Origin: Bacteroidales bacterium
GTDB taxonomy: Bacteria; Bacteroidota; Bacteroidia; Bacteroidales; UBA932
Length of the DNA stretch: 39,498 nt
Direction: 5' to 3'
Assembly (NCBI GenBank): GCA_017480345.1
Contig: JAFVAU010000030.1
Span: 1-39,498, forward strand
Notes under the pieces: model-generated
Databases searched by the model: none
What the model was told of the DNA's origin: nothing
Seen by the model: only the letters and a program-made list of their open reading frames with translations
Part shown: positions 11,590 to 31,783 of the stretch, piece by piece
How the letters are laid out: every line of letters begins with the position of its first letter
Numbering within the stretch: position 1 is the stretch's first letter
Made by a program: the position numbers and the translations under genes

Positions 11590-14520
11590 TTAAGGGATGA
11601 GGGTGAAACTCGTGCTGTAGTTGCCGTCACTCCACAGGGTGCGGGAGGCTTCGGGCCGGGAACCCCAGCTGTCATATCCTCCCACGCCGCTCATCCCCAA
11701 GTCCAGGATGAGTTCCGGACTGCTCCGGTGGGGCACGTCGGCAAGGTGTGTCTGGTGCTCTTTTTCCTCCGGGTCCAGATCTTCTGTCCAGGCGTCCAGG
11801 TAGTTGAACTCAAAGTCTCCCTGTATGGAAAGTCGGCTGGTTTTCAGCCATTTGACGCCGCTGCGGTGACCGGTCTCCTGGGGACGGACATAGGGGTAGA
11901 CTTCTTTGTCGGCCCGGCTGTGCCAGATGCCGGGGAAAGCCCCGCTGCACCGGTCTTGGTAATTCTCCCAAGGGCCGCGTCCCAGATAGCTGAAACGGGT
12001 GTCCGTCCCTTCCGGGAAGCGCATCCTGAGGCCGATGCGGGGAATCTCCGTCCGCGGACCCTTTCCGCCGTTGAAAGCCATATCCACCTTGATTATCCCG
12101 TCCGGAAGGATGTGGTATGCCACGGTGAGCAGGCTTTCCGCCGGCAGGGCATAATCCGTTTCCACCACCACGGTGTTGGACTCCTGGCGCACCCGGGTGC
12201 CGGCCTGGAAGTGTTGGGAGGCCTCTTTCCAGGCGCTCAGGCGCTGGGGGGAGCGGTTGCCCCGGTCGTTGTCCGTCCAGGCACGGTAAAAGATGGGCCG
12301 GAGACCGAATTTCGAGTCAAAGACATCCTTTCCCTTCACCTTATATTGCTTCAGGATTCCCTCGCTCTTGTCAAACACAAGTTGGAATTTCTTTTCGGAA
12401 ACGGTGATGCTTTGGGCGTCTTCTTCCCATACGGGCGCTTTCCCTTTGATTCTGCGCTCTTTGGCTGCTACAGTTTTCAGTTCGATGCAGTCCCGTGCGC
12501 CGGCCCCCTCGAAAACAAGCTGATAGGTGCCGCTTCGTCGCATGCGGGGAAGCCGGAGACTCAAGGTTTCATCGGCCTGTGGTGCCGTTTGAAGGCGGAA
12601 TTTTCCCTTCCGGATGGTTTTTCCGTCCCGCTGCAGTTTCCAGCTGAATTTCTCGCCTTCCAGGGACTTGAAATAGTTCCGGTTGAAGACGTGGAAAGTC
12701 CCGGTGGAATCCCGGTAAAAATGTACATTCTGGTACACATGCTGCACCTCGTAGAAGGCGGGATGCGGCTCCCGGTCGGGATTCACGATGCCGTTGCAAC
12801 AGAAATTGGCGTCGGAGCGGTCCGTGTCCCCGTAATCCCCGCCGTAGGTCCAGCCTCGCTCTTTGTCATACAGGCCCTGGTCCACCCAGTCCCAGATAAA
12901 GCCGCCCTGCAGCTGAGGAAAGGAGTAGATGGCCTCCCACTGGAGGTCCAGCGAGCCGGTGGAATTGCCCATGGAATGGGAGTACTCGGAGGGACACACC
13001 GGTCTTTCCGTATACTTCCGGCCCATTTCCCAAAACCATTCGGCATCCGGATACTGGGGCACAATCATGTCTGTGTTGTGCTCCATCTCTGCCCGTTCAT
13101 AGCAGACGGGACGGTTCATCCATCCCCGTTCCAGGGCCTTGAGGGTGTCGTAGGCGGCATAGAAGTTGACGCCGTTGCCGGCCTCGTTTCCCAGTGAGAG
13201 AATGGTTACGCAGGGGTAATTGGCAGTGCGGCCATACATGTTCAGCACCCGGTCCAGATGCTTGGCCCTCCACTCGGGATTGTTGCCCAGCGTACGCTCC
13301 AGGCGGTATCCCATGCCGTGGCTTTCGATGTTGGCCTCGTCATAGACGTAGAAACCCAGGGAGTCGCAGAGTTCGTAGAACTCGCGCGGCTGGGGATAAT
13401 GGCAGGTGCGGACGGCGTTGATGTTGGCCTCTTTCATCAGCCGCAAGTCTTGCAGGATGCGTTCCCGGGAAGTGTAGTGGCCGGTCCAGGGGTCGTGCTC
13501 ATGCAGGTTAACGCCTTTGAATTTGACAGGCTGTCCGTTCACCAGGAACACGCTCACCATCCGCCCGCCATCCCGGACGGGCTTGATTTCCAGACGGCGG
13601 AAGCCCACGTCAAAGCGGGTATATTCCCCGCCGGCCTCCACCAGCAGCGTGTACAGTTCCGGGGTTTCCGCGCTCCAGCGGCGCACCCCGGGAATCCGGA
13701 CAGGCCGGGTGAGCGTTTGTCCGTTCACGTCCAGCGTTTCCTGCGCCACCACCGTTTTGCCATCCAGCAGTTCATAGTGTATGCTCACAGGGATTTCACT
13801 GGAAAGACGCAGCTGGAACACCCCGGTGCGGCAGTCTTCCTCCAGGGTGCTCAGCACCTGGAAGTCCAGGTCTTTTCCGGGAGCCTCGGCACTCAGGAAG
13901 ATGTCCCGCTCAATGCCGCTGATGCGCCAGAAGTCCTGACATTCCAGGAAAGAGCCGGCAGTCCATCGGTACATCGTGAGCTCCAGCTGATTCTCTCCTT
14001 CCCGGAGAAAGGACGTGATTTCATAACGGGCCAGGGACTTGGAGTCTTCGTGGTAGCCCACATCGGCCCCGTTCACCTTTACATAAGTGCCGGATTTGGA
14101 GCCGCAGACATTCAGGTAGATGTTCTTCCCTTCCCAGGCCGATGGCAGCGTAAAGCTTCGCCGGTAGGTCCCGATGGGAATCTGCTCCGGCAGTTCTCCC
14201 GGGTCCGGATGCCTCCGCCCGAATTCGTAGGGATGGTTTACATAGATGGGGACGTCGTATCCTTGCACTTCCCAGTTGCCGGGCACCCGGATGGGTCCTT
14301 GGGCATGAAGGGCGCCGTCGGTGGAGGACAGGGTGAAGTCCCATCGGCCCGAAAGGCTCAGGTAGCGGGAACTCTGGGGAAAGCCCTTGGACAGGGCATC
14401 CTCGCGGGAGTCGTACCAGATTACCTCTGTCCGGCGGGTTTGTGCGTTCACGGATGTGGCTTGGATGTCCTTCCACAAAGGGAGGACGGCCAGGATAAGG
14501 TTGAAAATCAATGTGCACAT
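11590..14520 (-). CDS. GH2 beta-galactosidase (LacZ-like), exported
   Basis: A 976-residue glycoside hydrolase of family 2, likely removing beta-galactose from glycoprotein glycans after desialylation. The N-terminus is hydrophobic and ends VNAQ (about residue 27), consistent with export. The jelly-roll sugar-binding domain covers about 50-215, the Ig-like domain 220-310, and the TIM barrel 315-600. The acid/base is Glu446 in LSLGNEAGNG and the nucleophile is Glu512 in CPSEYSHSMGN. A C-terminal LacZ small-chain-type domain follows at about 700-976. It is divergent from susC; a minus-strand TATCTTTG (14538-14545) lies 18 bases before its start. The location suggests it belongs to the sialoglycan locus. 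Confidence 0.92.
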   Translation of the reverse strand: MCTLIFNLILAVLPLWKDIQATSVNAQTRRTEVIWYDSREDALSKGFPQSSRYLSLSGRWDFTLSSTDGALHAQGPIRVPGNWEVQGYDVPIYVNHPYEFGRRHPDPGELPEQIPIGTYRRSFTLPSAWEGKNIYLNVCGSKSGTYVKVNGADVGYHEDSKSLARYEITSFLREGENQLELTMYRWTAGSFLECQDFWRISGIERDIFLSAEAPGKDLDFQVLSTLEEDCRTGVFQLRLSSEIPVSIHYELLDGKTVVAQETLDVNGQTLTRPVRIPGVRRWSAETPELYTLLVEAGGEYTRFDVGFRRLEIKPVRDGGRMVSVFLVNGQPVKFKGVNLHEHDPWTGHYTSRERILQDLRLMKEANINAVRTCHYPQPREFYELCDSLGFYVYDEANIESHGMGYRLERTLGNNPEWRAKHLDRVLNMYGRTANYPCVTILSLGNEAGNGVNFYAAYDTLKALERGWMNRPVCYERAEMEHNTDMIVPQYPDAEWFWEMGRKYTERPVCPSEYSHSMGNSTGSLDLQWEAIYSFPQLQGGFIWDWVDQGLYDKERGWTYGGDYGDTDRSDANFCCNGIVNPDREPHPAFYEVQHVYQNVHFYRDSTGTFHVFNRNYFKSLEGEKFSWKLQRDGKTIRKGKFRLQTAPQADETLSLRLPRMRRSGTYQLVFEGAGARDCIELKTVAAKERRIKGKAPVWEEDAQSITVSEKKFQLVFDKSEGILKQYKVKGKDVFDSKFGLRPIFYRAWTDNDRGNRSPQRLSAWKEASQHFQAGTRVRQESNTVVVETDYALPAESLLTVAYHILPDGIIKVDMAFNGGKGPRTEIPRIGLRMRFPEGTDTRFSYLGRGPWENYQDRCSGAFPGIWHSRADKEVYPYVRPQETGHRSGVKWLKTSRLSIQGDFEFNYLDAWTEDLDPEEKEHQTHLADVPHRSSPELILDLGMSGVGGYDSWGSRPEASRTLWSDGNYSTSFTLIP

Positions 14521-14711: not shown

Positions 14712-17700
14712 ATGAGAAAAGCACTCAAAAGCACTGCTTCCCTCTTGCTTGTCGGCTTGCTCTCGGTGATACTGGGGGGGGCAAATCTCTTTGCCCAGAA
14801 CCGCTGCACCGGTAAGGTCGTCGACGCTCAGGGAGAGCCCGTCATTTCCGCTTCCGTTCTCATCAAGGGCGCACCTGTCACCACAGGTACCGTTACCGAC
14901 TTTGACGGTAATTTTGTCCAGACGAACGCAAAGACCGGAGATGTTCTGGTGATTTCCTCCATTGGTTACACCACCGTGGAGGTTGTATGGAACGGACAGC
15001 CTCTGACCATTACCCTGCAAGAGGATGCCAACCTTCTGGACGAGACGGTGGTAACCGCCTACGGCGGCCGCCAGCTTCGCTCCAAGGTGACCAACTCCAT
15101 CTCCTCCGTCAAGGAAGAGACCCTTTCCTCCGGTATGCACACCAATGCGGCCCAGGCCCTGTCCGGTGCCGTGGCCGGTCTGCGTGTCCAGCAAACTTCC
15201 GGTGACCCCGGTGCCAGTCCCACCATCGTCCTCCGCGGCGGTACCACCATGGGCGGCGGCGGAAGTCCCCTGGTGATTGTGGACGGCGCCCAGCGCAGCA
15301 TGTCGGACCTGAATCCCGCCGACATCGAATCCATGGAAGTTCTCAAGGATGCCGGTGCCACCGCCATCTACGGCGCCCGTGCCGCCAACGGCGTTATCCT
15401 CATTACCACCAAGCGGGGTAAGGAAGGTTACAGCGCCATCGGCGTGAGGGCCAAATTCTCCGCCAACTTCGAGCAGCACCCCTATGAGTTCCTGAACTCG
15501 GCCGACTATCTTTATTATATGCGAATGGCCTACAAGCGTTCCTCTGAGTATATTACGCTTTCGGACGGAACCAAGATGGGCTCCACCAACACCAGCTCCC
15601 TGGCCGGTCAGCAACCCTACGGCACCGGCAACCTGTATTGGGATGCCGCCGGCAACGTGCTGGACGGCCGCAAGGACGGCCGTGCCCTCTGGGGTGTCTA
15701 TGACAACTCCGACGGAAAGTACTCCACGCTCCTGTCCAATCCGGACTGGGGAACCATGGTGGACCCCGTCACCGGAAATCCGCTCGTCTTCTGGCAGGGC
15801 AAGACCGTGGCCGATATCAATATCAAGAGCCCGGCTTTCTCTCAGGACTACGGCGTAGATTTCCAGGGCGGCAACGACAAGGGGCGCTACTATGCCTCCA
15901 TCGGCTACAACCGCTCTGAGGGTAATGCCCTGGACAATGACTACAACCGTATCACCTTCGCTTTCAACGGAGACTACAAGATCCGGAAGTGGTTGCACTC
16001 CAGTTCTTCCTTCAACTTTGCCCATACCACCTGGACGCCCATCAAGAACGGCAACTCCGAAGCCTATTACTTCAACCGTTCGTGGTCCGTTCCTCCCACC
16101 TACCGTACCACCAATGCAGACGGTGAGTGGAACCCCAGCCCGCGTAACAGCATCCAGGATGGCCATGTGGCCATTTCCAACCCGCAGCGCATCTACGACT
16201 ACAATACGGACAAGTTCAACATGAACCAGACCTTCACGATCTTCTTCACCCCTTGGCTCAATTTCAAAGCCAGCGCCAGCTGGTACTATGAAAACACTAA
16301 GCAGGAGTATTTCATGAAGGACTATCTGCTGGGTGCCAACCGCTATTACAGGAACCGCGAAAGTTATGATTACTATAATCGGAACCTGAACCAGACCTAT
16401 ACCGGTATCCTCAATTTCAACAAGACCTTCGTCAACGTCCACAATGTGTCCGCCATGCTGGGTGTCGAGTATTTCGACCAGGGTACCAAGGGCTTTGATG
16501 CCTATGGTTATGGCGCCGACACGGACGATTTCCAGGACCTGTCCCTCACCAAGCAGGATGAATCCCGTAAAATAGACTCCTGGCACAGCCAGAACCGTAT
16601 CCTGTCCTTCTTCGCCAAGGCCGACTACGATTACGATTCCAAGTATCTGGTCTCCCTGGTTGCCCGTTATGACGGCTATTCCCGTCTGGCCAAGCAGAGC
16701 CGCTGGGGTTTCTTCCCCGGTATCTCCGCCGGTTGGGTCTTCTCCAGGGAGCCCTTCATGGAGCCGGTAAAGGATGTGATTTCCTTCGCCAAACTCCGTA
16801 TGTCCTATGGTGCCAACGGTAGTTTGGACGCCGTGGGCAATTACCAGGTATATGGTGCCTATGGCAACCAGACCAATTATGACGGAAACAACACCATCCT
16901 CTTCTCCACCCTGCCTACTCCGGCACTGCTCTGGGAGAAGTCCTGGACCTTCGAAACCGGTCTGGACATGAGCTTCTGGCAGAACCGCCTGAACGTGAAC
17001 CTGACGTACTACAACCGTCATACGTCCAACAAGATTGCCAACATCACCATCCCGTCCCATACCGGTTCCTCCACCTTGCTCTCCAACAACGGTGAAATCA
17101 TGAACCAGGGTTTTGAGTTCGAAATCAACGCCCGTATCGTGAACACCCGTGACTGGAAGGTAAATCTGGCCCTGAACGGTGCCTACAACCGGAACAAGAT
17201 TGTCAAGCTTCCCGACAACGGCCTGGAGAACAACCGTCAGAATGCCCAGCAGGTGTACGATCCCAAGACGGGAGAACTCATCTGGGTAGGCGGCTATCAG
17301 GAAGGCCAGACCCCCGGAGACATCTACGGACCGCTGGCAGAAGGCATCTATGGCAGCTACAGCGAGATTCCCGGCAACCTCATCGATAAGACTTCCGGTA
17401 ACAACGGTTCCAACGGCAAGTGGCTCTACGGCCCCGATGCCTGGAAGAATCTGTCGGATGCGGAAAAGAGAGGCGCTTTCCCCATTCAGCCTGGTGACGT
17501 CAAGTGGAAGGATGTGAACGGAGACGGTGTCATCGACAATTACGACCTGGTGAAACTGGGCAACACCGTTCCCAAGTGGACGGGCGGATTTGTTCCCACC
17601 GTTTCCTGGAAGGGCATCACCCTCACCGGCCGTTTCGACTATGCCCTGGACTTCAAGGTGGTGGACAACGTAACTCCTTGGATCATGGGTAACATGCAGG

Positions 17701-18065
17701 GTACCTTCAATACCATCTCCCTGGTGAAGGATTCCTATGATGTGGAAAATCAGAAGATGGCCACATGGCCCACCTATGCCTGGGCCGATCAGCTTGGAAA
17801 ACGCAACTATGCCCGTACCAACAACAGCCTCTTCGTTTACGAGGGCTCCTACCTGGCTGTCCGCGAACTCCAGCTGGCCTATGACTTCCCCAAGTCTCTG
17901 CTGGAGAAGATCCGCCTGGAGAAACTCCAGGTCTATGTCTCCGGACAGAACCTCGGCTACCTGACCAAGGCCGGTCTCCTGGGCACGCCTGAATACGGCG
18001 CCAGCTCCTGGGGCTCCTACCGCCTTCCCCGCACCGTCATCTTCGGTATCAATCTTACGTTCTAA
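14712..18065 (+). CDS. SusC/RagA-family TonB-dependent outer-membrane transporter
   Basis: A 1117-residue outer-membrane beta-barrel that imports oligosaccharides using TonB energy. After a signal peptide (to about residue 29, LFAQ), a carboxypeptidase-regulatory-like domain follows (GKVVDAQGEPVISASVLIKG). A TonB-box-like ETVVTAYGG is next, then the plug (about 120-230, with VLKDAGATAIYGARAANGVI) and a long barrel ending in a terminal Phe (FGINLTF). It is paired with a SusD gene 18 bases downstream, the standard lid protein. The gene context (sialidase, NanA, esterase) indicates sialylated glycans as cargo, by inference only. Confidence 0.96.
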   Translation: MRKALKSTASLLLVGLLSVILGGANLFAQNRCTGKVVDAQGEPVISASVLIKGAPVTTGTVTDFDGNFVQTNAKTGDVLVISSIGYTTVEVVWNGQPLTITLQEDANLLDETVVTAYGGRQLRSKVTNSISSVKEETLSSGMHTNAAQALSGAVAGLRVQQTSGDPGASPTIVLRGGTTMGGGGSPLVIVDGAQRSMSDLNPADIESMEVLKDAGATAIYGARAANGVILITTKRGKEGYSAIGVRAKFSANFEQHPYEFLNSADYLYYMRMAYKRSSEYITLSDGTKMGSTNTSSLAGQQPYGTGNLYWDAAGNVLDGRKDGRALWGVYDNSDGKYSTLLSNPDWGTMVDPVTGNPLVFWQGKTVADINIKSPAFSQDYGVDFQGGNDKGRYYASIGYNRSEGNALDNDYNRITFAFNGDYKIRKWLHSSSSFNFAHTTWTPIKNGNSEAYYFNRSWSVPPTYRTTNADGEWNPSPRNSIQDGHVAISNPQRIYDYNTDKFNMNQTFTIFFTPWLNFKASASWYYENTKQEYFMKDYLLGANRYYRNRESYDYYNRNLNQTYTGILNFNKTFVNVHNVSAMLGVEYFDQGTKGFDAYGYGADTDDFQDLSLTKQDESRKIDSWHSQNRILSFFAKADYDYDSKYLVSLVARYDGYSRLAKQSRWGFFPGISAGWVFSREPFMEPVKDVISFAKLRMSYGANGSLDAVGNYQVYGAYGNQTNYDGNNTILFSTLPTPALLWEKSWTFETGLDMSFWQNRLNVNLTYYNRHTSNKIANITIPSHTGSSTLLSNNGEIMNQGFEFEINARIVNTRDWKVNLALNGAYNRNKIVKLPDNGLENNRQNAQQVYDPKTGELIWVGGYQEGQTPGDIYGPLAEGIYGSYSEIPGNLIDKTSGNNGSNGKWLYGPDAWKNLSDAEKRGAFPIQPGDVKWKDVNGDGVIDNYDLVKLGNTVPKWTGGFVPTVSWKGITLTGRFDYALDFKVVDNVTPWIMGNMQGTFNTISLVKDSYDVENQKMATWPTYAWADQLGKRNYARTNNSLFVYEGSYLAVRELQLAYDFPKSLLEKIRLEKLQVYVSGQNLGYLTKAGLLGTPEYGASSWGSYRLPRTVIFGINLTF

Positions 18066-18083: not shown

Positions 18084-19652
18084 ATGAAAAAGATATTAAG
18101 CATCCTCACCGTCTCCGGCGCCCTCGTCTTGTCCGGTTGCAACGCTCTGGATCTTGCCCCTATCGACTATGCGGCTGCCGGTAACTACTGGACGTCCGAG
18201 GCGCAGATAGACCTGTTCTTCAACGGCATGATGTCCCAGCTCCGTGGAGACTATGCATCCCCGTTTATCTTGGGAGAAACCCGCGGCGGCACCCTGAAAA
18301 ACGGGTCTTCCATCGAGGGCGTTTCCCTGAGCTACCCCATTATGGTGACCAACCGCCTGGACAAGGACAATACCGGCGTGAGCAACTGGAACGGTTACTA
18401 CAGCCGAATCCTACAAGTCAACCATTACATCGAGCAGGTCCGTGACCACTGCGAGTTCCTTTCCGATGAAGCCCGCAACGCTTTTCTGGCTCCCGGCTAC
18501 GGTCTGCGCGCCTACTACTACTTCATGTTATACAAGACCTTCGGCGGTGTCCCGCTGGAGAAAGAGGCCAAGATTATCAATGGAGAGGGCAATATCGAGA
18601 ACCTCTACCTGGCCCGCTCTTCTGCGGAAGAAACCCTCTCTTTCATCAAGGAAGACCTTGGCGAAAGCGAAAGATGCTATGGCTCCTTTAAGGACAATGA
18701 TCCCTATTATTGGAACTACTATGCCACCGAGATGCTGAAGGCTCATGTGTACATGTGGTCTGCCAAGGTGACCACCAATGACAAGACCACGGCACACAAT
18801 GCCGTCGGAGCCGCCGACGTGAACACCGCCAAGGCCGCCCTGCAGAATGTGATGGGCAAATATGAGCTGGAAGACAATTTTGCCGACATCTTCGATTATT
18901 CCAACAAAGCCGGCAAGGAAGTGATCCTGGCCCTTCCCTTTGACAGGAGCGAAACCACCAATGCTGCCGGCCAGTTTTATTATCAGGCTTCCATTTGGGT
19001 GAATTCCTTCTATGATGAGGACGGAAACCTTCTGGGAGACCCGCTGGACCTGAAGGGCGGCGGTATGCACCGTGACGAGTACAAGGAATCCTTCGTGAAG
19101 TCCTTCGACGCTGCCGACGACCGCCGTGCCGCCACTTTCCACGAGTGCTATTCCAGCGCCGACCCTGCCACCCGTGTCTTCGGCTCCTCCATGCTCAAAT
19201 ACATGGGACATGTAGAAGGCAGCAACCGTTATCTGGATTCCGACATTATCCTGTACCGCTATGCCGATGCCCTCCTGCTGATGGCCGAAGCCGAAAACTT
19301 CCTGGGCAACTATGACATAGCCGCCGGATACATCAACCAGATCCGTGAACGTGCCTACGGCGTGGGCTATCCGGAATTTGCCACGTCTGACTTTGCCACT
19401 ACCGAGCTGGCCATCCTGCACGAGCGTGACAAGGAGTTCGTGGCCGAAGGCTGCCGCTGGTTCGATGTGGTAAGAATGCATGACGCTTCCCACAAGTCTT
19501 TGGTATTCTCCGCCGCAGCGGCCTATCCGGAGACTTTGGGCGGAACGGCAAGTCCCATTCTGTCCTCTTCCGAGACGCAGAAACTGCTCTGGCCGGTGAA
19601 TGCCTCTGTGCTGGCAAATGACCCTCTGCTGGAACAGACAGTCGGTTATTGA
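18084..19652 (+). CDS. SusD/RagB-family nutrient-binding lipoprotein
   Basis: A 522-residue surface lipoprotein that forms a lid on the SusC barrel and binds glycans. The lipobox is LSGC with Cys19. Diagnostic SusD segments are the ALDLAP start, GYGLRAYYYFMLYKTFGGVPL, and the C-terminal YRYADALLLMAEAENFLGN, YINQIRERAYG and ERDKEFVAEGCRWFDVVR. TPR-like helices fill most of the protein. Downstream, a strong terminator (19672-19714) and a new promoter suggest susCD is a transcription unit with partial read-through into the enzyme genes. Confidence 0.96.
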   Translation: MKKILSILTVSGALVLSGCNALDLAPIDYAAAGNYWTSEAQIDLFFNGMMSQLRGDYASPFILGETRGGTLKNGSSIEGVSLSYPIMVTNRLDKDNTGVSNWNGYYSRILQVNHYIEQVRDHCEFLSDEARNAFLAPGYGLRAYYYFMLYKTFGGVPLEKEAKIINGEGNIENLYLARSSAEETLSFIKEDLGESERCYGSFKDNDPYYWNYYATEMLKAHVYMWSAKVTTNDKTTAHNAVGAADVNTAKAALQNVMGKYELEDNFADIFDYSNKAGKEVILALPFDRSETTNAAGQFYYQASIWVNSFYDEDGNLLGDPLDLKGGGMHRDEYKESFVKSFDAADDRRAATFHECYSSADPATRVFGSSMLKYMGHVEGSNRYLDSDIILYRYADALLLMAEAENFLGNYDIAAGYINQIRERAYGVGYPEFATSDFATTELAILHERDKEFVAEGCRWFDVVRMHDASHKSLVFSAAAAYPETLGGTASPILSSSETQKLLWPVNASVLANDPLLEQTVGY

Positions 19653-19756: not shown

Positions 19757-22687
19757 ATGGCCAAGCGTTTCCTCCTTCTGTTTCTTGCGCTCGCGCTCGT
19801 TTCCGCCGCGGAAGCGAAGCCCCTCAGGAAAGTAAAGGTATCCTGCGTGGGGAATAGCATTACCTACGGCATGAAGCTGGAAAATCGGGAGCGGGACTGC
19901 TATCCCGCCCAACTTCAGCGCATGCTGGGAGAAGGATATGAAGTGGGGAACTTCGGGAAATCCGGAGCCACCCTGCTCAGGCATGGGCACCGGCCCTACA
20001 TGGAGCAGGAAGAATTCCGGCAGGCCCTGGACTTCGCTGGGGACATCGTTGTCATCCACTTGGGCATCAACGATACGGACCCCCGCAACTGGCCCCATTA
20101 TGCCGATGAATTCGTGGGCGATTACCTGGCCCTCATCGACAGCCTCCGTTCGCGAAACCCGGAGGCAAGATTCTATGTGGCCAAGATGACGCCCATCGGC
20201 CATACGCACCCCCGTTTCCTGACCGGGACCAAACAGTATCACGGGGAGATTCAGGCGGCCATTGAAGAGGTGGTACGCCACTCCGGGGCTCAGTACATCG
20301 ATTTTTATGAGCCTTTGTATCACTATCCCTGGATGCTGCCGGATGCCGTGCATCCCAACGCAGAAGGGGCCACCCTTCTGGCCCGCGAGGTCTATAGCGC
20401 CGTCACCGGGGACTGGGGCGGCCTTCAGATGCCGCTCTGGTACAGTGACAACATGGTTCTGCCGCGCGATAAGGTGTTTTCCGTCAGCGGCCGGGCCGAT
20501 GCTGGGCAGAAGGTTCAGGTAAAGCTCTCCGGTAAGAAATATACCGCCGTGGCGGGCCCTGACGGCCGCTGGGCCGTTGAGGCGGGGCCTTTCCCCGTCA
20601 CGCTCTCCGCCACGCTGGAGATAAAAGCCGGAAAGAAAAGCCTCAAGTATAAGAATGTGGCCATAGGAGACCTTTGGCTCCTGAGCGGCCAGTCCAATAT
20701 GGAATTCGAACTCCGCCAGTGCGCTACGGCGGAGGATGCCCGGAAGGCCGATGACCCCGGCCTGCGTCTGTTTGACATGAAGTGTAACTGGCGCATGGAC
20801 AACGTGAGTTGGAGTGCTTCCGCCGTGGATTCGGTGCAGCACCTTCAGTATTTCCGTCCCACGAAGTGGACGCAGGCTACGCCCCGGACGGCAGAGCGTT
20901 TCTCTGCCATCGGCTATTATTTTGGAAAGCAACTCCGGGATAGCCTCCAGGTGCCTGTGGGCCTCATTTGTAACGCCGTGGGCGGCTCCACCGCCGAATC
21001 CTGGGTGGACCGGGAGTTCCTGGAGACGCAGTTCCCGGAAATTCTGTACGACTGGCTGGAGAATCCGGAAATCATGGCGTGGGCGCGTGGCCGCGCCCGG
21101 AAGAATCTGGGCGGAGAAGGGCGCCATCCCTACGAGCCCTGCTACCTCTATGAGTCGGCCCTGCTTCCTTTGAAAGACTGCCCGGTGACGGGCATCCTGT
21201 GGTACCAGGGAGAATCCAATGCGGAGAACATTCCCGCCCATGAGCGGCTGTTCCCGCTGGTGGTGGATTCGTTCCGCGGTCTCTTTGGCCCGGTGCCATT
21301 CTATTACGCGCAGCTCTCGGAGATGAACCGGCCCAACTGGCCGGCCTTCCGGGACTCACAGGAGAAACTGCTGACGAGCCGTCCCCGCCTGGGAATGGTG
21401 GTCACCAAGGATTTAGGCGAATGGACAGAGGTCCATTACCGCAGCAAGAAACCCGCCGGGGAGCGTTTTGCCGCCCTGGCGTTGAATGACTTTTACGGGA
21501 AGGAAGATTTCCCTGCCCATTTTGAGGACGCCACCCTCCGGCTGGACTATGTCTTTTGCGGCGATGCAAAGCACCAGGGAATCTATCTGCGGCAGGCCTT
21601 CCGGACATCCGCCTGGGCCGGCAGGAAGGAGCATCTCGCGGAGCCCTTGTTGAGAGGAAACGGGCAGATCCGGGTGTTGGATCCGCTCAGCGGTGCCTGC
21701 CTCTATGCCAACAGCTTTTCCTCCCTTTTTCAGGAGTGGACGGTGACCGAGGAAGCCACAAAAGTGCAAAAGGCCTTCGAGAATAGCTTCCAAGTGCCTT
21801 TCCCCAAGCATCCTGTTCAGATTGAAGTAAGCCTTTGGGATACCCACGGGAAGCTTTCGGCCCATATCCTCCATCCACTGGACCCTTCGGATATCCTGAT
21901 TCGCCCTCTGGCCGATAACAAGTTGGAAACCAGGCTGGTGCATGGTGGAGCCCCCTTGGCACAGGCCATAGACATTGTGGTGGTCTCCGAGGGATACACC
22001 GTCTCTGAAAAGGACAAATTTTTCCACGACGCCCGTCGGGCGGCCGATGCCCTTTTCTCGCACGAGCCTTTTGCTACGAATGCCGGGCGCTTCAATGTCC
22101 GGGCCGTTTTCGCCCCTTCGCCGGACAGCGGCGTGAGTGTGCCCCATGATGGCGTCTGGCGCAATACATCGGCCTCCAGCCACTTCGACACGTTCTATTC
22201 CCGGCGTTACCTCACCACTTCCTCCATTTGGGAAGTCTGGAATCAGATAGCTACCGTGCCTTTTGAGCATCTGATTGTGCTGGCCAACACCGCCACGTAC
22301 GGCGGGGGCGGAATCTACAACAACATCACCATCATGAATAGCGACCACGCCACCTTTGTTCCGGTGCTGGTACACGAGTTCGGCCATTCCTTCGGCGGCC
22401 TGGGTGATGAGTATTATTACGACGACCAGTTTGATACACAATATCCGGCCGACACGGAACCTTGGGAGCCTAACCTTACCACGCTCAAGGATTTCAGTGG
22501 CAAGTGGGAAGATTTGGTGGAGAAAGGAGAGGCCGGCTTGTGGGAAGGCGGCGGTTATCAGTCCAAGGGTGTTTACCGCCCGGCAGCGGACTGCCGCATG
22601 AAAACCAATGAATGTGACCGCTTCTGTCCCGTCTGCTACCGGGCCATAGAGCGGATGATAGCTTATTATACAACACAAAACCAATAA
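19757..22687 (+). CDS. Fusion: SGNH esterase + sialate O-acetylesterase + M64 (IgA-type) peptidase
   Basis: A 976-residue secreted protein with three enzyme domains in one uninterrupted frame. A signal peptide (1-20, ending AEA) comes first. An SGNH/GDSL esterase covers about 25-218, with GNSITYG at 32-38 and catalytic Asp196/His199 in DAVHP. A sialate O-acetylesterase (SASA) domain covers about 230-580, with GQSNMEF at 311-317, WYQGESN at 482-488 and His560 in DLGEWTEVH. An M64 peptidase starts at about 588 with its N-terminal beta domain (HFEDATLRLDYVF) and ends in a catalytic domain with the zinc motif HEFGHSFGGLGDE at 873-885. The two esterase domains together match the usual Bacteroidales sialate esterase; the peptidase is normally a separate protein. 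The fusion suggests deacetylation of sialoglycans and cleavage of the carrier protein by one molecule. Confidence 0.9.
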   Translation: MAKRFLLLFLALALVSAAEAKPLRKVKVSCVGNSITYGMKLENRERDCYPAQLQRMLGEGYEVGNFGKSGATLLRHGHRPYMEQEEFRQALDFAGDIVVIHLGINDTDPRNWPHYADEFVGDYLALIDSLRSRNPEARFYVAKMTPIGHTHPRFLTGTKQYHGEIQAAIEEVVRHSGAQYIDFYEPLYHYPWMLPDAVHPNAEGATLLAREVYSAVTGDWGGLQMPLWYSDNMVLPRDKVFSVSGRADAGQKVQVKLSGKKYTAVAGPDGRWAVEAGPFPVTLSATLEIKAGKKSLKYKNVAIGDLWLLSGQSNMEFELRQCATAEDARKADDPGLRLFDMKCNWRMDNVSWSASAVDSVQHLQYFRPTKWTQATPRTAERFSAIGYYFGKQLRDSLQVPVGLICNAVGGSTAESWVDREFLETQFPEILYDWLENPEIMAWARGRARKNLGGEGRHPYEPCYLYESALLPLKDCPVTGILWYQGESNAENIPAHERLFPLVVDSFRGLFGPVPFYYAQLSEMNRPNWPAFRDSQEKLLTSRPRLGMVVTKDLGEWTEVHYRSKKPAGERFAALALNDFYGKEDFPAHFEDATLRLDYVFCGDAKHQGIYLRQAFRTSAWAGRKEHLAEPLLRGNGQIRVLDPLSGACLYANSFSSLFQEWTVTEEATKVQKAFENSFQVPFPKHPVQIEVSLWDTHGKLSAHILHPLDPSDILIRPLADNKLETRLVHGGAPLAQAIDIVVVSEGYTVSEKDKFFHDARRAADALFSHEPFATNAGRFNVRAVFAPSPDSGVSVPHDGVWRNTSASSHFDTFYSRRYLTTSSIWEVWNQIATVPFEHLIVLANTATYGGGGIYNNITIMNSDHATFVPVLVHEFGHSFGGLGDEYYYDDQFDTQYPADTEPWEPNLTTLKDFSGKWEDLVEKGEAGLWEGGGYQSKGVYRPAADCRMKTNECDRFCPVCYRAIERMIAYYTTQNQ

Positions 22688-22690: not shown

Positions 22691-23608
22691 ATGGAAAAGA
22701 TTATCGGCCTTATCGATGCTCCCTTCACGCCCATGAAAGCCAATGGGGACGTGAACCTGGAACCCATTCCCGCCTATGCCGCCATGCTGGCCAAGAACGG
22801 CCTCAAGGGCGTTTTCATCAACGGCTCTTCCGGTGAGGGCTATATGCTCACCACCGAGGAGCGCAAAGCCCTGGCCGAGGCCTGGGTGAAAGCCGTTCCC
22901 GCAGGTTTCAAAGTAATTGTACACGTGGGCAGCTGCTGCCTGCGCGAGAGCGTGGAACTGGCCAGGCATGCCGCCACGCTGGGTGTCTGGGGCATCGGTG
23001 CCATGGCTCCGCCCTTCCCCAAGATCGGCCGCATCGAGGAGCTGGTGAAGTATTGCGAGACCATCGCGGCCGCCGCGCCGGAGCTTCCGTTCTACTTCTA
23101 CCACATCCCGGCCTTCAACGGCTGCTTCCTGCCCATGCTGGACTTCCTGAAAGCCGTGGACGGACGTATCCCCAATTTTGCCGGCATCAAGTACACTTTC
23201 GAGAGCCTGTACGAGTACAACCAGTGCCGCCTGTACAAGAACGGCAAGTTTGACATGCTGCACGGTCAGGACGAGACCTATCTGCCTTCCCTTGCCCAGG
23301 GCGGTGCCCAGGGCGGCATCTGCGGAACCACCAACTACAACGGCCGCGAGCAGGTGGCCATCGGTGAGGCCTGGGCGGCCGGAGACCTGGAGAAAGCCCG
23401 CGAACTGCAGAACTTCTCCCAGGAGGTAATCAATGTGATTTGCTACTTCCGCGGAAACATCGTGGGCGGCAAGCGCATCATGAAGCTTATCGGCCTGGAC
23501 CTGGGCCCCAACCGCGTGCCCTGGCGCAATCTTACCGACGAGGAAGAGGCTGCCATGAAGGCCCAGCTGGAAGAGATCAACTTCTTCTCCCGTTGCAATG
23601 TTCTCTAA
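22691..23608 (+). CDS. nanA: N-acetylneuraminate lyase
   Basis: A 305-residue class I aldolase that splits N-acetylneuraminate into N-acetylmannosamine and pyruvate in the cytoplasm. The GSSGE pyruvate-carboxylate motif is at 45-49, the catalytic Tyr137 sits in FYFYHIP, and the Schiff-base Lys167 in FAGIKYTF. The length fits the dihydrodipicolinate synthase/NAL family. The start lies three bases after the stop of the fusion gene, and the 3' end overlaps the next gene by 11 bases, so these genes form a tight operon. Confidence 0.95.
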   Translation: MEKIIGLIDAPFTPMKANGDVNLEPIPAYAAMLAKNGLKGVFINGSSGEGYMLTTEERKALAEAWVKAVPAGFKVIVHVGSCCLRESVELARHAATLGVWGIGAMAPPFPKIGRIEELVKYCETIAAAAPELPFYFYHIPAFNGCFLPMLDFLKAVDGRIPNFAGIKYTFESLYEYNQCRLYKNGKFDMLHGQDETYLPSLAQGGAQGGICGTTNYNGREQVAIGEAWAAGDLEKARELQNFSQEVINVICYFRGNIVGGKRIMKLIGLDLGPNRVPWRNLTDEEEAAMKAQLEEINFFSRCNVL

Positions 23609-24626
23609 ATTCAGTGGGTGGGCCGCTGTCGTCCTGATGGCGGCCGCCTGTTCCCAGCCTATGAAGCAGATTTCAACCACTCAACTTCCTCCCATTCCGG
23701 ATGCCGCTTATGCCAAGGGCGTTTCGGCCCCTTTCTGCGGTGCCATCGGTGAAACCCTGGTGGTGGCGGGAGGTGCCAATTTCCCCGACAAACCGCTGCT
23801 GGAAGGCGGTGCCAAGCGGGTTTATGCCGACATCTGGGCCTTTGCAGACGGGGCGTGGACCCATGCCGGCGTGCTTCCGGACTCCGTGGCGTACGGTGCC
23901 ACTTTCCTGGTTTCTGACGGCCTGGTTTTCGCCGGCGGCAATGTCTGTGGCGTTACCACGGATAAAGTGTACAAGGTGAGCCTGGCTGGTGGGAAGGCTT
24001 CCGTGACTCCGCTCCCGTCCCTTCCCGTTCCCTTGGAGCAGTGCGGGTGGACGCAGTGCGGTGAAAACCTCTTCTTGGCTGGCCAGGATGGCGTTTTTTG
24101 CTGCAGGGAAGGGGAGTATGTATGGCAGAAACTCTGCGACATCCCCGAGCCGCTTGTGCAGCCTGTGGCTTATGCCACCGGAGGAAAGCTTTTCCTCTGG
24201 GGCGGCTTCAATCCCCAGACGCTCCTGGCGCCGGATACAGGCCACTGCCTGGACCTGAATACGCTGGAGTGGGGGAACGCTCCCGCCATTCCGGACGGCG
24301 GCACCTTCGTGGGCGCCACCGGGGCCACCTTGCCGGACGGCAGGCTGGTGGTGGTTGGCGGTGTAAACCGTGCCATCTTTGAGCGGGCCCTTCGCAACAC
24401 CCCGGAAGACCGCATTCCTTATCTGTCCCAGGAACCTTCCTGGTACAAGTTCCGCCGGGAAGTGTTTGTCTTTGACGGCAGCGCTTGGACTTCTTTGGGT
24501 GAGTGCGCTCCGGCGGCCCTGGCCGGTCCGGGGCTGGCCATCCTCCCTCAGGGAGTGCTTGTGACCGGCGGCGAACTCAAGCCCGGAGTCCGCAGCCCCA
24601 AAACGTTCATCCTCAAAACTGAATAA
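23598..24626 (+). CDS. Kelch-type N-acetylneuraminate mutarotase/epimerase (NanM-like) lipoprotein
   Basis: A 342-residue exported beta-propeller. The lipobox ends AAAC with Cys18. Repeated kelch-like blades (LVVAGGANFPD, LVFAGGNVCG, LFLWGGFNPQ, LVVVGGVNRAIFE, VLVTGGELKPG) match the cyclically permuted mutarotase family, whose E. coli member NanM converts alpha- to beta-sialic acid. This would supply the anomer the transporter takes up. It overlaps nanA by 11 bases, a sign of coupled translation. The identification is by blade motifs and context. Confidence 0.87.
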   Translation: MFSKFSGWAAVVLMAAACSQPMKQISTTQLPPIPDAAYAKGVSAPFCGAIGETLVVAGGANFPDKPLLEGGAKRVYADIWAFADGAWTHAGVLPDSVAYGATFLVSDGLVFAGGNVCGVTTDKVYKVSLAGGKASVTPLPSLPVPLEQCGWTQCGENLFLAGQDGVFCCREGEYVWQKLCDIPEPLVQPVAYATGGKLFLWGGFNPQTLLAPDTGHCLDLNTLEWGNAPAIPDGGTFVGATGATLPDGRLVVVGGVNRAIFERALRNTPEDRIPYLSQEPSWYKFRREVFVFDGSAWTSLGECAPAALAGPGLAILPQGVLVTGGELKPGVRSPKTFILKTE

Positions 24627-24699: not shown

Positions 24700-25200
24700 A
24701 TGAAAAGAATCTTTCTGACAATATTACTCTTCTTGCCCCTGGTGACGGCATGCACAAAAAGTGAGGTGGCAACCCCAAAAAAAGTGCGTATTTTTGTTGA
24801 GAATCTACGGTCCGGAGGCCGGAATTTTCTTGTTTCTTTCTCAGAAGAGTGTGGTTTCACGCCGGAATCCATTCCTTATTTTTTGGAATATGCCACCGAT
24901 GAAACGCTGTTGATAGCTCAGCCTTCTCCTTTTTCGTCCTATATGGGATATGTTCCTCTTGGGGTGGAAGTCCTTTGGTATGTAGAAAGTATCCGGACTG
25001 GCGGAAACCCCAAATTGGGCGGACTGGTTTCTCTGTTCCCCCACATTTCGAAAAACGGTGAAAGGCTGGATGGTGAAAGCGCCGTCCTTGTGGTGCCGGA
25101 ACTCTCCGGCTACTACAAAGCCTGGTGGAAGAAATACGGCAGCAATCCCCGGGTGGCGGTGCAAATAGATCCTTTGAAGGATACGGGTTATAGTTGGTAA
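24700..25200 (+). CDS. Small lipoprotein of unknown function in the nan operon
   Basis: A 166-residue exported lipoprotein with the lipobox LVTAC (Cys18). The mature part is rich in aromatic residues and has no repeat or catalytic motif that I recognise. Small Bacteroidales lipoproteins of this size are common beside SusCD genes (compare DUF4943-type proteins), but I cannot assign it to a family with confidence. The base composition is clearly lower in GC than the genes on either side, which suggests separate acquisition or relaxed selection. A surface glycan-binding or accessory role is only suggested by position between nanM and GH20. Confidence 0.6.
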   Translation: MKRIFLTILLFLPLVTACTKSEVATPKKVRIFVENLRSGGRNFLVSFSEECGFTPESIPYFLEYATDETLLIAQPSPFSSYMGYVPLGVEVLWYVESIRTGGNPKLGGLVSLFPHISKNGERLDGESAVLVVPELSGYYKAWWKKYGSNPRVAVQIDPLKDTGYSW

Positions 25201-25212
25201 TTGATTATTGAT

Positions 25213-27003
25213 ATGAACCGCATCATTTCTCTCGCGGCCCTATCGGCTCATCTCCTGTCCTCCTCCTGCTCGGCGCCTTCACCGGAGGTGAACCTGCTTC
25301 CGCTTCCTAAGGATCTCCGCTGGGAGAAGGGGACCGTGCCGGCCTCAGCGCCTGAAATCCAGTGGGTGGACAGCATCCCCGGGGCCCGATTGAATGGGGA
25401 CGAGGCTTATCGGCTCAGCGTAAGAAAGGACGGAATCCGGATAGAGGCCGTAACGGAAAAAGGCCTCTGGAACGCCCGGCAGACGCTTTCCCAACTTAAG
25501 CAAGGGAGCCAGGTACCCTGCTGTACCATTACGGACTGGCCTTCTTTCCGCGTACGCGGGTGGATGATGGACGTGGGACGCACCTACATGTCCCTGGAGG
25601 AACTTTACCGGGAAGTGGATGCTTTCTCCCGCTTCAAACTCAATGTTTTCCACCTGCATCTGACGGAAAACGAAGCCTGGCGCATGGAGAGCCTTCGGTA
25701 TCCGCAGCTGAATGCCCCGGAGACCATGACCCGTCAGGCGGGCCTGTACTATACCCAGGAAGAGCTCCGCGCTTTGGATGCCTATTGCCGGGAGCGGGGC
25801 GTTACACTGGTGCCGGAGCTGGACATGCCCGGGCACAGCGCCGCTTTCGAGCGGGCTTTCGGCTTCGGGATGCAGAGTCCGAAGGGCCTTGCCGTAGTGA
25901 AAGACCTGTTGGAAGAGCTGATGGAGGTGTTCTCCTCGGAGTACATCCACATTGGCACGGACGAGGTGCGCTTTACCATGCCGGAATTCGTGCCGGAAGT
26001 GGTGGCCTTCGTGCGTTCGAAAGGCCGAAAGGCCGTTTCCTGGAACCCGGGCTGGAACTATGCGCCCGGAGAAATTGACGCCACCCAGCTCTGGAGCTAC
26101 CGGGGCAAGGCGCAGCCCGGGATTCCCGCGGTGGACTGCCGGCTGCATTACATCAACCATTTCGACCTCTTCGGGGATATCATCGGCCTGCATACCAGCC
26201 GGATTTATGATGCCGATGAAGGCTCCCCGGACCTGGCCGGATCCATCATTGCCCTCTGGAACGACCGCTATGTGCCGGATGAGCAGGCGATTATCCTGGA
26301 AAATAACCTGTATGCCACTGCGCTGGCACTGGCCGACCGGGCCTGGCGGGGAGGGGGGTATCAATACTTCAATGATTTTGGCACTATCCTGCCGGAAAGC
26401 GGCCCGGCCCGCGAAGATTTCCTGAACTTTGAGCGGCGGATGCTCCCGTATCTGGATAATCTGCCTACGCAATACGTTCAGCAGGGGAATGCCCGCTGGG
26501 CGCTTTCTCCCGTATATGACAACGGGGGAGACCTGGAGGCCGTTTTCCCGCCGGAAGAAGGGAAGTGGGAGACAGAACGTGTCCTTACCGGCTCCGGCTT
26601 CTATCTGCGTCATGTGTGGGGGCCTTCCATTGTGGCGGGCGTTTATCCGGAGCCGCGGCCTAACAGTACCGTCTATGCCCGGTCCCGCGTGTGGAGCGAT
26701 GCGGAGCAGGCTGTGGGCCTTCTTTTTGAAACGCAGAACCACAGCCGCTCGGAGCACGACGCTCCTGACCCGGACGGAGCCTGGGATTACCGCCACAGCC
26801 GCATCTGGCTCAATGGAGAGGAACTTCTTCCTCCCGCAAGTACGGTTACGCTCCGGAAAGGATGGAACAGCGTTCTTGTGAAACTTCCTGTGGGAGCCTT
26901 TTCCACTCCTGAAACCCGCCTGGTGAAATGGATGTTCACCTGCGCTTTCACCACCCCGGACGGCCGCATGGCCGCTCCTGTCAAGTATGCCGATAATTTT
27001 TGA
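25213..27003 (+). CDS. GH20 beta-N-acetylhexosaminidase lipoprotein
   Basis: A 596-residue exo-hexosaminidase removing terminal beta-GlcNAc or beta-GalNAc from glycans. The lipobox is LSSSC (Cys19). The GH20b domain covers about 28-105 and the catalytic barrel about 108-420. The hallmark Asp250-Glu251 pair in IHIGTDEVR gives the substrate-assisted mechanism. HLHLTENEAWRME and PELDMPGHSAAFERAF are further family motifs. A beta-rich C-terminal domain (about 440-596) may bind carbohydrate. The ATG at 25213 was chosen over an in-frame TTG at 25201 because it starts the signal peptide. The next gene begins three bases after its stop. Confidence 0.92.
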   Translation: MNRIISLAALSAHLLSSSCSAPSPEVNLLPLPKDLRWEKGTVPASAPEIQWVDSIPGARLNGDEAYRLSVRKDGIRIEAVTEKGLWNARQTLSQLKQGSQVPCCTITDWPSFRVRGWMMDVGRTYMSLEELYREVDAFSRFKLNVFHLHLTENEAWRMESLRYPQLNAPETMTRQAGLYYTQEELRALDAYCRERGVTLVPELDMPGHSAAFERAFGFGMQSPKGLAVVKDLLEELMEVFSSEYIHIGTDEVRFTMPEFVPEVVAFVRSKGRKAVSWNPGWNYAPGEIDATQLWSYRGKAQPGIPAVDCRLHYINHFDLFGDIIGLHTSRIYDADEGSPDLAGSIIALWNDRYVPDEQAIILENNLYATALALADRAWRGGGYQYFNDFGTILPESGPAREDFLNFERRMLPYLDNLPTQYVQQGNARWALSPVYDNGGDLEAVFPPEEGKWETERVLTGSGFYLRHVWGPSIVAGVYPEPRPNSTVYARSRVWSDAEQAVGLLFETQNHSRSEHDAPDPDGAWDYRHSRIWLNGEELLPPASTVTLRKGWNSVLVKLPVGAFSTPETRLVKWMFTCAFTTPDGRMAAPVKYADNF

Positions 27004-27006: not shown

Positions 27007-28353
27007 ATGATAACAACTTTATTCTCTATTTTGGCCGCTGCCCTGATCCAGGTCCGTCATGTGCAGGTTCCCGTTGTGACGGACAGGGATGTCCCTGTAG
27101 CGGAAGTAACGGTTCCCGAGGGTGTTGCCCCTCAGTGGCAAATCAAGGCCGCCGGCCTGCCCTGCCATGCGCTTAAGAATGCGTATGTAAAAGACAACCA
27201 GCTATTTGTACACATTGACGGAGCCAAAGTCAAAGACCTCTCCAAGCCTTTCAGACTCAAGGTGAAGGCCAAAGGAATGGAAGTGGAGGAAAGCGGCGCC
27301 ACGCAGCACCGGCTGGCCCGCAGCGTCCGTAACGCCGGAGACGACGGCGTGGTGGCCTACCGCATTCCCGGGCTGGTGACCTCGAAAAAGGGAACCCTCA
27401 TTGCCACCTACGATATCCGTCACAACCATTCCCGCGACCTCCAGGACGACATTGACGTGGGCATCAGCCGTTCCACCGACGGCGGCCTCAGTTGGGGGCC
27501 GATGATCGTGGCCATGGACATGGGCGAATACGGCGGTCTTCCGCAGAACGTGAACGGAATCGGAGACCCTTGCATCCTGGTGGATGAGGTGACGGGAGAC
27601 ATCCTGCTCTTTGCCGCCTGGACTCATGGCGGAACGGCCGGAAAGGCGGCCTGGTGGACGGCCGGAAGCGGCTTTGAGCCCTCCCGGACCCCCCAGCTCA
27701 TGATGACCCGTTCCACGGATGACGGCCTCACTTGGAGCGCCCCGGTGAACCTGACCCGCCAGGTGAAGCAGGAGCCCTGGAATTTCACCTTCCAGGGTCC
27801 CGGCCGCGCCATCACCATGGCCGACGGCACCTTGGTGGTGCCCTTCCAGCATCAGGAGCCGGACCGGACTCCCGCCGCCGGCGTTATGTATTCCAAAGAC
27901 CGCGGCACCTCCTGGCAGGTGCATGAATATGCCAAAATCAACACCACCGAATCCCAGGTGGTGGAGGTGGAGCCCGGCGTACTGATGCTGAATATGCGCG
28001 ACAACCGCAAGACCGGCCGCGCCGTGTATATTACCAAAGACCTGGGCAAGACCTGGGAGCCGCATGTGTCTGACGGCCAGCTGGTTGAGCCGGTGTGCAT
28101 GGCTAGCCTGATCAAGGCCGGCGACTTGCTGCTTTTCTCCAATCCCGCCGACCCCAGGGAACGCCGCAACATGACCATCCGGATTAGCGAGGACGGCGGC
28201 ATCAGCTGGACCCGCAAACTCCTTCTTGACGAAGGATACGGCTGGGGGTATTCCTGCCTTACCATGATTGATAAAGACACCGTGGGTATCCTCTATGAGA
28301 GTTCCCAGGCCCACATGACTTTGCAAGCTGTTAAACTGAAAGACATCCGTTAG
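27007..28353 (+). CDS. nanH: GH33 exo-alpha-sialidase
   Basis: A 448-residue sialidase that releases terminal sialic acid. The arginine-triad motif YRIP is at 118-121, and five Asp-boxes (S/T-x-D-x-G-x-x-W) lie at 156-163, 236-243, 296-303, 343-350 and 394-401. The TESQVVEVEPG segment holds the conserved Glu, and Tyr415 in YGWGYSCL fits the nucleophile. Residues 20-100 form the N-terminal beta domain of Bacteroides-type sialidases. The hydrophobic N-terminus (residues 2-15) is a short, weak signal sequence. The gene is three bases behind GH20 and three bases before the MFS gene, in one operon. Confidence 0.94.
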   Translation: MITTLFSILAAALIQVRHVQVPVVTDRDVPVAEVTVPEGVAPQWQIKAAGLPCHALKNAYVKDNQLFVHIDGAKVKDLSKPFRLKVKAKGMEVEESGATQHRLARSVRNAGDDGVVAYRIPGLVTSKKGTLIATYDIRHNHSRDLQDDIDVGISRSTDGGLSWGPMIVAMDMGEYGGLPQNVNGIGDPCILVDEVTGDILLFAAWTHGGTAGKAAWWTAGSGFEPSRTPQLMMTRSTDDGLTWSAPVNLTRQVKQEPWNFTFQGPGRAITMADGTLVVPFQHQEPDRTPAAGVMYSKDRGTSWQVHEYAKINTTESQVVEVEPGVLMLNMRDNRKTGRAVYITKDLGKTWEPHVSDGQLVEPVCMASLIKAGDLLLFSNPADPRERRNMTIRISEDGGISWTRKLLLDEGYGWGYSCLTMIDKDTVGILYESSQAHMTLQAVKLKDIR

Positions 28354-29610: not shown

Positions 29611-29617
29611 AACCGTC

Positions 29618-29639
29618 ATGCCCGGCTCCGACCGGGCAT
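29618..29639. repeat. Single-hairpin copy of the palindromic repeat
   Basis: ATGCCCGG/CCGGGCAT with loop CTCCGA, preceded by CGTC and followed by CT, is the second half of the repeat seen at 11179-11202. It lies in the short gap between the MFS and GH109 genes, eight bases after the MFS stop. Confidence 0.75.
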
Positions 29640-29665
29640 CTGAAAAGCAATCAACCATAAAAAAT

Positions 29666-31039: not shown

Positions 31040-31783
31040 TTATTCCCACATAGGAAAGGCCGCCTGGAGTACTTCCGGGCGGTTTTTCGTTGTGGATTCC
31101 AGAAAACCGCCGCCGGGGGTGAAGGCCAGTACGCGGTGCGCTACCTTGAGGGCGTCGGGAAGGTCGTGGGAAGAAAAGAGGACGGCCATGCCGGTCTGCT
31201 CCGCCAGATTCCGAAGGGTTCTCAGGACCATGAGGCGGTTCTCCACGTCCAAGTAGGCCGTGGGCTCGTCCAGCAGGAGGATGTCGGCCTTGCGGGCCAG
31301 ACTCACCGCAATGCAGGCCTTCTGGAACTCGCCGTCACTGAGGGTGGAGATGTCCTGCCTCTGCCGCTCCGCCAGTCCCAGCCGCTCCATGGCCTCTTTC
31401 AGCCTCTTTTCCGTCTCTTCACTCAGTTTCCCGGCCCAGTTGCTCTCCCGGTAGCACCCGGTCCTGATGAATTCCTCCACCGTAAAGCCCTTTACCTTGG
31501 GAATTCCGGTAGGGATGAGGATGCATTTGGGCCAGGTGGGATTTTGTGCCACCTTCCTGGCCCGCTCATTCTGGGTTGTAGTACTGCCAGAGCCGTTTTC
31601 TTTGGGCTTGGTGGGCCCCATGAAATCCCACCTGGCCCGCGAGGCCAGGAGCCGCAGCAAGGTGGACTTGCCGCAGCCGTTGGCACCGGCCAGGAGCACG
31701 CATTCGCCCGCCTCTATGTGGAAGGAGATATCGGCCGCCAGAACACGCTCGCCGTAGGCCAGTTTCATATGCTTGATGTCCAT
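31040..31783 (-). CDS. FecE/BtuD-type ABC transporter ATPase
   Basis: A 247-residue cytoplasmic ATPase powering import of an iron chelate, heme or cobalamin with the adjacent permease. Walker A is GANGCGKS at 33-40, the signature LSDGE at 148-152, Walker B LLLDEP at 169-174 and the switch His196 in SSHD. Start at 31783 overlaps the permease stop by one base (TGATG). The segment between Walker A and the Q-loop (about residues 49-85) is unlike the family and is framed by a perfect 16-base inverted repeat (31529-31544 and 31623-31638). The usual Q-loop is hard to place. The 3' end also holds a terminator for the convergent GH109 gene. Confidence 0.85.
   Translation of the reverse strand: MDIKHMKLAYGERVLAADISFHIEAGECVLLAGANGCGKSTLLRLLASRARWDFMGPTKPKENGSGSTTTQNERARKVAQNPTWPKCILIPTGIPKVKGFTVEEFIRTGCYRESNWAGKLSEETEKRLKEAMERLGLAERQRQDISTLSDGEFQKACIAVSLARKADILLLDEPTAYLDVENRLMVLRTLRNLAEQTGMAVLFSSHDLPDALKVAHRVLAFTPGGGFLESTTKNRPEVLQAAFPMWE
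31060..31087 (+). terminator. Terminator of the sialoglycan operon
   Basis: CCGCCTGGA pairs with TTCCGGGCGG and is followed by five T on the plus strand. It lies 21 bases after the GH109 stop, inside the 3' end of the convergent ATPase gene. Confidence 0.7.
31529..31638. repeat. 16-bp perfect inverted repeat framing 78 bp within the ATPase gene
   Basis: GGGCCAGGTGGGATTT (31529-31544) returns as its exact complement at 31623-31638. Smaller CCTGGCC/GGCCAGG dyads lie inside and just outside the arms. The whole segment is coding (residues 49-85 of the ATPase). Confidence 0.7.

Follow-up and report, generated by a model that had tools for sequence, protein, structure and literature searches.

The window analyzed here, a 39,498-nucleotide contig from a Bacteroidales bacterium, carries a gene in which two esterase domains are joined in frame to an M64 metallopeptidase, together with a set of genes for the use of sialic acid. 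Its features are as follows, with assignments based on Pfam unless noted otherwise.

8667-10082, forward: phosphoglucomutase (an antisense frame, o8658, was used merely as a synteny label)
11590-14520, reverse: GH2 beta-galactosidase, divergent, upstream of the locus
14712-18065, forward: SusC-like TonB-dependent transporter
18084-19652, forward: SusD-like lipoprotein
19757-22687, forward: fusion gene comprising a signal peptide, SGNH esterase, SASA esterase, M64_N and M64 peptidase (open reading frame and Pfam)
19757-19816, forward: signal peptide of the fusion protein, residues 1-20, approximate, judged by eye
19844-20371, forward: SGNH/GDSL esterase domain, residues 30-205 (Lipase_GDSL_2, 9e-28)
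20669-21475, forward: SASA sialate O-acetylesterase domain, residues 305-573 (SASA, 3.7e-16)
21476-21505, forward: SASA/M64_N junction, residues 574-583, no linker (Pfam borders and alignments from six genomes)
21506-21862, forward: M64_N beta domain, residues 584-702 (M64_N, 1.1e-39)
21950-22660, forward: M64 metallopeptidase domain (PF09471 stretches 21950-22531 and 22532-22660)
22691-23608, forward: NanA-like sialic acid lyase of the DHDPS family (DHDPS, 3.9e-47; the name NanA is taken from the context)
23598-24626, forward: NanM-like N-acetylneuraminate epimerase (NANM, 5.6e-29)
24700-25200, forward: DUF4943 protein, inside the sialic-acid locus
25201-27003, forward: GH20 hexosaminidase family protein
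27007-28353, forward: BNR sialidase family protein (BNR_2, BNR_3)
28357-29610, forward: MFS transporter
29555-31039, forward: GH109 family protein whose true start is probably more internal (Glyco_hydro_109_C)

The fusion gene is a single frame with an ATG start, 976 codons for amino acids and zero internal stops. A sequence-only reading of this DNA had proposed that two sialate-esterase domains and an M64 peptidase share a single polypeptide, and the four Pfam domains found along the frame bear this out (Peptidase_M64 matches residues 732-925 at 5e-60). The catalytic motifs, which that reading had called intact, are all present: GNSIT at residue 32 and DAVHP at 196 in the SGNH domain; GQSNM at 311 and WYQGESN at 482 in the SASA domain, where EVHY is also found; and HEFGH at 873 in the M64 domain, within the zinc motif HEFGHSFGGLGDE (residues 873-885, bases 22373-22411). 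The structural-zinc site of M64 peptidases, E/Cys3, is present as well, with cysteines 946, 957 and 960. Across six aligned fused proteins (see below), residues S34, D196, H199, S313, E486 and H560 of the esterase domains, which on family knowledge we take to be the catalytic ones, were invariant. So were H873, E874, H877, D884 and E885 of the M64 domain, whose catalytic residues were assigned with the help of an excerpt of PMC12402451. The gene product is a single unbroken polypeptide that contains three catalytic units.

At an E-value of 0.001, Pfam returned nothing for the protein beyond GDSL (two models), SASA, M64_N and M64, and there was no match to any non-M64 peptidase or mucinase family; NCBIfam profiles gave nothing above their cut-offs. 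By eye, the N-terminus resembles a type I signal peptide without a lipobox. The genome to which the window belongs contained one match to the fusion protein.

The fusion gene sits within a sialic-acid (sialoglycan utilization) locus, preceded by the SusC and SusD genes and followed by those for NanA, NanM, DUF4943, GH20, the sialidase, the MFS transporter and GH109. Judged by the activities of their families, the enzymes of the locus could strip a sialylated O-glycan until only the GalNAc linked to Ser/Thr is left. A kinase was sought beside GH109 in the window, and the frame there (31136-32200) had no Pfam match. Sialic-acid genes likewise surround the fusion gene in the other five species that carry it; it adjoins nanA in four of these five relatives and GH109 in the fifth (G324).

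Distribution and inheritance of the fusion

When the full protein was searched against 151 genomes of the genus, which is probably GTDB's Cryptobacteroides, 145 had a match, and among the matches listed only the window crossed the junction. The best other matches listed covered either residues ~3-603, mostly in frames of 600-750 aa, or residues ~571-976, mostly in frames of 400-520 aa, and many of the weaker ones were to SASA alone. A 200-aa piece spanning the junction was then searched against 400 genomes of the genus (334 with a match, the best listed first). Among the matches listed, the junction aligned through in six of the 400: the window (G000) and G153, G351, G270, G252 and G324, which were 88%, 87%, 82%, 81% and 72% identical to the window over the piece, respectively. 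The five other fused frames were open and 979-1060 aa long. In most other relatives in the genus, among the matches listed, the halves were separate frames; the sequence-only reading had held that their being always separate in related genomes would speak against a fusion, and they are not always separate.

Because six of the 400 genus genomes run open through the junction, the fusion is not a misjoin, and a misassembly is rejected given the same open-frame fusion in six species. The fused gene is the single strong M64 match in each of the six genomes, with weak extra ones in four. Among the six fused proteins, pairwise dN/dS ranged over 0.075-0.129 in the esterase half, where 11 of 15 pairs had a finite dS, and over 0.086-0.192 in the M64 half, where 14 of 15 did; these values are rough since synonymous sites are near saturation. 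These data show that purifying selection has maintained the fusion in all six species; it is real and inherited in gut Bacteroidales.

The fusion as a wider trait of the Bacteroidales was considered and rejected: an order-wide search of 393 genomes from 206 genera (157 with a match at E 1e-15, the best listed first) listed no junction-crossing match apart from the window. A degenerate junction pattern, calibrated on 80 loci of which 12 matched, all of them fused, found five contigs in the genome_contigs set (84,980 species), and these correspond in length to contigs of the five other fused genomes: RUG13929, UBA4231, RGIG9187 (water deer reticulum), RGIG4871 (roe deer rumen) and RGIG3780 (roe deer abomasum). 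They span three assembly series (RUG, UBA and RGIG). The pattern would miss a fusion in another order or one with a long linker, and the set may leave out the window's own record. A plasmid search matched 47 records, none across more than 80% of the query.

Relatives and history of the two halves

The two-esterase half is not new and is of a known type, being like EstA of Bacteroides and NanS of Tannerella forsythia by their descriptions, with SGNH and SASA domains and a place in a sialic-acid locus. In EstA the SGNH and SASA domains are likewise combined in one protein. EstA is a sialate O-acetylesterase according to an excerpt of PMC5512079, and NanS is described, as cited in part of PMC8319020, as having two catalytic modules, for O7 and O9. 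Release of O-acetyl groups from sialic acid would be expected of an esterase half of this type. The fusion protein departs from this type in what follows SASA: a C-terminal stretch of ~100 aa, carried by full-length esterases of the genus, is absent and the M64 peptidase comes next. Those full-length esterases (~700 aa) align, among the matches listed, with residues 1-586, the highest identity being 66%. The sequence-only reading was thus right that the N-terminal beta domain of M64 stands in place of the esterase C-terminus, and its placing of the junction near residue 585 agrees with the Pfam border at residue 584 (base 21506).

An unfused esterase of 583 aa in G345 also lacks the C-terminal stretch. 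In a 25-row esterase tree, the six fused proteins formed one clade (99/98) with this esterase and a 607-aa esterase from G347, and the sister of that clade was a pair of other short esterases, of 591 and 612 aa (95/96). The C-terminal stretch was probably lost before the fusion arose, because unfused short esterases group with and beside the fused clade. G347 is the row nearest to the window in this tree. Its esterase gene (L066 11662-13485, reverse) has an in-frame gap of 1173 bp exactly at the position of the window's M64 domain and retains the final codons ahead of nanA; there was no M64 match in the genome, which is 89% complete. By parsimony, the lack of M64 in G347 would be a secondary loss, and since the locus keeps the esterase without M64, the peptidase is dispensable to it. 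A DNA search around G347 in 20 genomes added nothing new.

The M64_N and M64 part of the fusion protein matched 3p1v (E 4.7e-132) and 4df9/9qdi, which is BF3526 (E 4.6e-128), over the whole length. By such whole-length matching, its closest relatives are BF3526 of B. fragilis and BACOVA_00663 of B. ovatus, members of M64 cluster CL-I. It shares with this type the order M64_N then Peptidase_M64, the HExxHxxxGxxD motif and the E/Cys3 site; the zinc ligands are identical to those of BF3526, as are 12 of 14 checked positions, substrate-contact residues included, the two exceptions being N304 (T866 in the fusion) and M331 (F892). The match to the IgA protease of Thomasclavelia ramosa (ThomasA/IgAse, cluster CL-V) was confined to residues 739-788 (E 5.3e-8). 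The family fold and the HExxHxxxGxxD zinc motif are common to both, and none of the ThomasA accessory domains described in part of PMC12237041 was seen in the fusion protein.

As reported in excerpts of PMC12402451, BF3526 trims fragments that have already been digested, cutting close to the N-terminus, mostly after Pro but in addition after Ser, Gly or Thr, and leaves intact IgA1, IgA2 and IgG1 uncut. Its N-terminal beta domain is described there as a barrier that restricts access, and a domain of this kind (M64_N) is present in the fusion protein. By analogy, the M64 half of the fusion protein may trim short peptides from their N-termini. The same excerpts give CL-I as almost 50% of M64 peptidases in the published network, and state that homologues of BF3526 are not in PULs and not linked to carbohydrate metabolism, the authors considering BF3526 and its homologues independent of polysaccharide use.

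In M64 trees of 74 and 25 rows, the six M64 halves did not behave as one group. In the 25-row tree five of them grouped with a standalone M64 from G037 (87/95), and support for these five as a group without G037 was just 44/11. The M64 half of G324 stood apart from the other five and keeps an insert of ~30 residues that standalone forms also have. Monophyly of all six was rejected (p-AU 0.008, the group having been chosen after the first tree was seen). A single fusion event for all six is disfavored by this result, and a replacement of the M64 half in G324 would look identical; two fusions, or a single one after which the M64 half was replaced, fit the trees best.

A survey of 72 M64 loci of the genus examined their surroundings. 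These loci were mostly the best matches of the junction search rather than a random sample, and some were cut by contig ends; linkage meant a sialidase, nanA, nanM or esterase gene within 8 kb, at 35% identity or more over half of the reference. Of 13 loci in the subclade that bears the fusion, which was delimited after the tree had been seen, 10 had M64 linked or fused to sialic-acid genes, versus 0 of 59 other M64 loci. Among the unfused members of the subclade, 4 of 7 were linked. In G369 M64, a full-length esterase and nanA are separate neighbors, with M64 first, and in G125, G214 and G293 M64 adjoins a sialidase. The three unlinked loci are L069, in which M64 stands by itself at the chromosomal position that the window's locus occupies, L078, in which it lies beside GH20 and GH109, and L090, in which a contig ends on one side of it. 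Among the matches listed for the 400 genus genomes, G121 alone had M64_N and M64 fused to a BNR sialidase (893 aa, L079 9554-12235, forward). Overall, one M64 subclade in the genus is often found in sialic-acid loci, and was fused to an esterase, perhaps twice, and once to a sialidase.

Proposed role of the fusion protein

The reading we favor, at a probability of roughly 0.6, is that the gene encodes an inherited fusion enzyme of a sialoglycan locus, exported by Sec to the periplasm, which deacetylates and trims sialoglycopeptides already cut by other enzymes. A periplasmic protein is more likely than a cell-surface one because the signal peptide, as judged by eye, has no lipobox. The SusC/SusD pair would import sialoglycopeptides into the periplasm, where the SGNH and SASA modules would remove O-acetyl groups from sialic acid, by analogy with NanS one at O7 and one at O9, and so let the sialidase cut. 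The M64 module, acting like BF3526, would take short pieces from the N-terminus of the stripped peptide, with that enzyme's residue preferences, and GH20, GH2 and GH109 would take off the remaining sugars. The fusion may set the ratio of these activities and hold them on one substrate, which would be peptides pre-cut by other enzymes; intact mucin or IgA would not be expected to be opened. Since Pro, Thr and Ser abound in mucin cores, a peptide-trimming module beside glycan-stripping enzymes makes sense. Against this reading count the dispensability of M64 in G347, the presence in L069 of an M64 of the subclade by itself at this site, and the published view that homologues of BF3526 have no link to carbohydrate metabolism (PMC12402451).

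If active, the fusion would be one protein that deacetylates and trims glycopeptides in one step, and it is a testable clue to the substrate of a common kind of M64 peptidase. The repeated linkage or fusion of M64 to sialic-acid enzymes in one genus points to sialoglycopeptides as the substrate of one branch of CL-I. Such recruitment to sialic-acid loci runs against the statement on BF3526 homologues in the excerpts of PMC12402451 given above. In the literature searched, with most subscription papers outside its scope, there was no earlier report of a combination of M64 with a sialate esterase.

It is doubtful that the protein goes further and is a self-contained finisher of O-glycopeptides, in which the esterases and then M64 act in order on the same glycopeptide. 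Here an exopeptidase would be fed deacetylated and desialylated Pro/Thr/Ser-rich mucin stubs, perhaps still with GalNAc. Were this true, one branch within the largest cluster of M64 peptidases would consist of dedicated sialoglycopeptidases and not of general peptidases.

We consider it unlikely that the fusion is without joint function, a tolerated accident of a deletion between neighbors in which M64 works in general peptide turnover and has nothing to do with sialic acid. Its rarity (6 of 400 genus genomes, among the matches listed), the loss of the M64 domain in the close relative G347, and the location of most surveyed M64 genes of the genus away from sialic-acid genes would all suit such an accident. 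However, both halves are constrained, unfused members of the subclade also adjoin sialidase or esterase genes in 4 of 7 loci, a separate M64-sialidase fusion exists, and the failure of the six M64 halves to form one clade suggests more than one event.

A surface or secreted mucinase or IgA protease, with esterases that unmask sialoglycans and an M64 domain that cuts the carrier protein, is quite improbable. The IgA protease of T. ramosa does belong to the M64 family, the sialidase, GH20, GH109 and GH2 of the locus indicate that the substrate may well be a glycoprotein, and in some relatives an additional, lipoprotein M64 occurs within or next to such loci. Nevertheless, a mucinase role is unlikely because BF3526, the closest relative, trims pre-digested peptides and spared intact immunoglobulins in the work excerpted from PMC12402451; moreover, the M64_N barrier domain is present, no lipobox was seen and Pfam found no peptidase family other than M64. 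Thus, of the interpretation offered by the sequence-only reading, the domains and a joint role on sialoglycan and peptide stand, whereas cleavage of mucin or IgA is probably wrong given the M64 subtype. An assembly artefact that joined two genes has a negligible chance of being the explanation, since, although the comparison genomes include MAGs, the same in-frame junction occurs in six species and three assembly series without a second strong M64 match.

Other M64 genes in the genus

During these searches we noted a second, distant M64 type with a lipobox-like N-terminus, located within or next to SusC/SusD loci that contain sialic-acid or esterase genes. It was seen in G252, G270, G324, G231, G165 (two copies) and G148, which together are the seven best matches, query included, of a search in which 60 of 400 genomes had a match and the window's genome had none. 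The loci are L064 4007-5899 (reverse), L165 1699-3600 (forward), L065 12910-14844 (reverse), L169 8927-10828 (forward), L170 8355-12199 (forward; G165) and L168 5139-7148 (reverse). The HExxGHxxGxxxDE motif was read in G252, G270 and G324 only, and the gene in G148 goes with a neighboring, divergent SusC/D pair. Four weaker matches (G022, G141, G068 and G063) were outside such loci. Beside the two lipoprotein M64 genes of G165, the sialate esterase is split in two frames (L170 12378-13859 and 13896-14513, forward), possibly by a frameshift.

M64 genes with N-terminal extensions of ~440 aa (G332, L122 7759-10257, forward) and ~300 aa (G159, L123 8095-10140, forward) were also observed, and neither extension had a Pfam match. 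A protein of 1052 aa in G153 (L166 2255-5413, forward) carries BspA-type leucine-rich repeats and, after them, a distant M64 domain.
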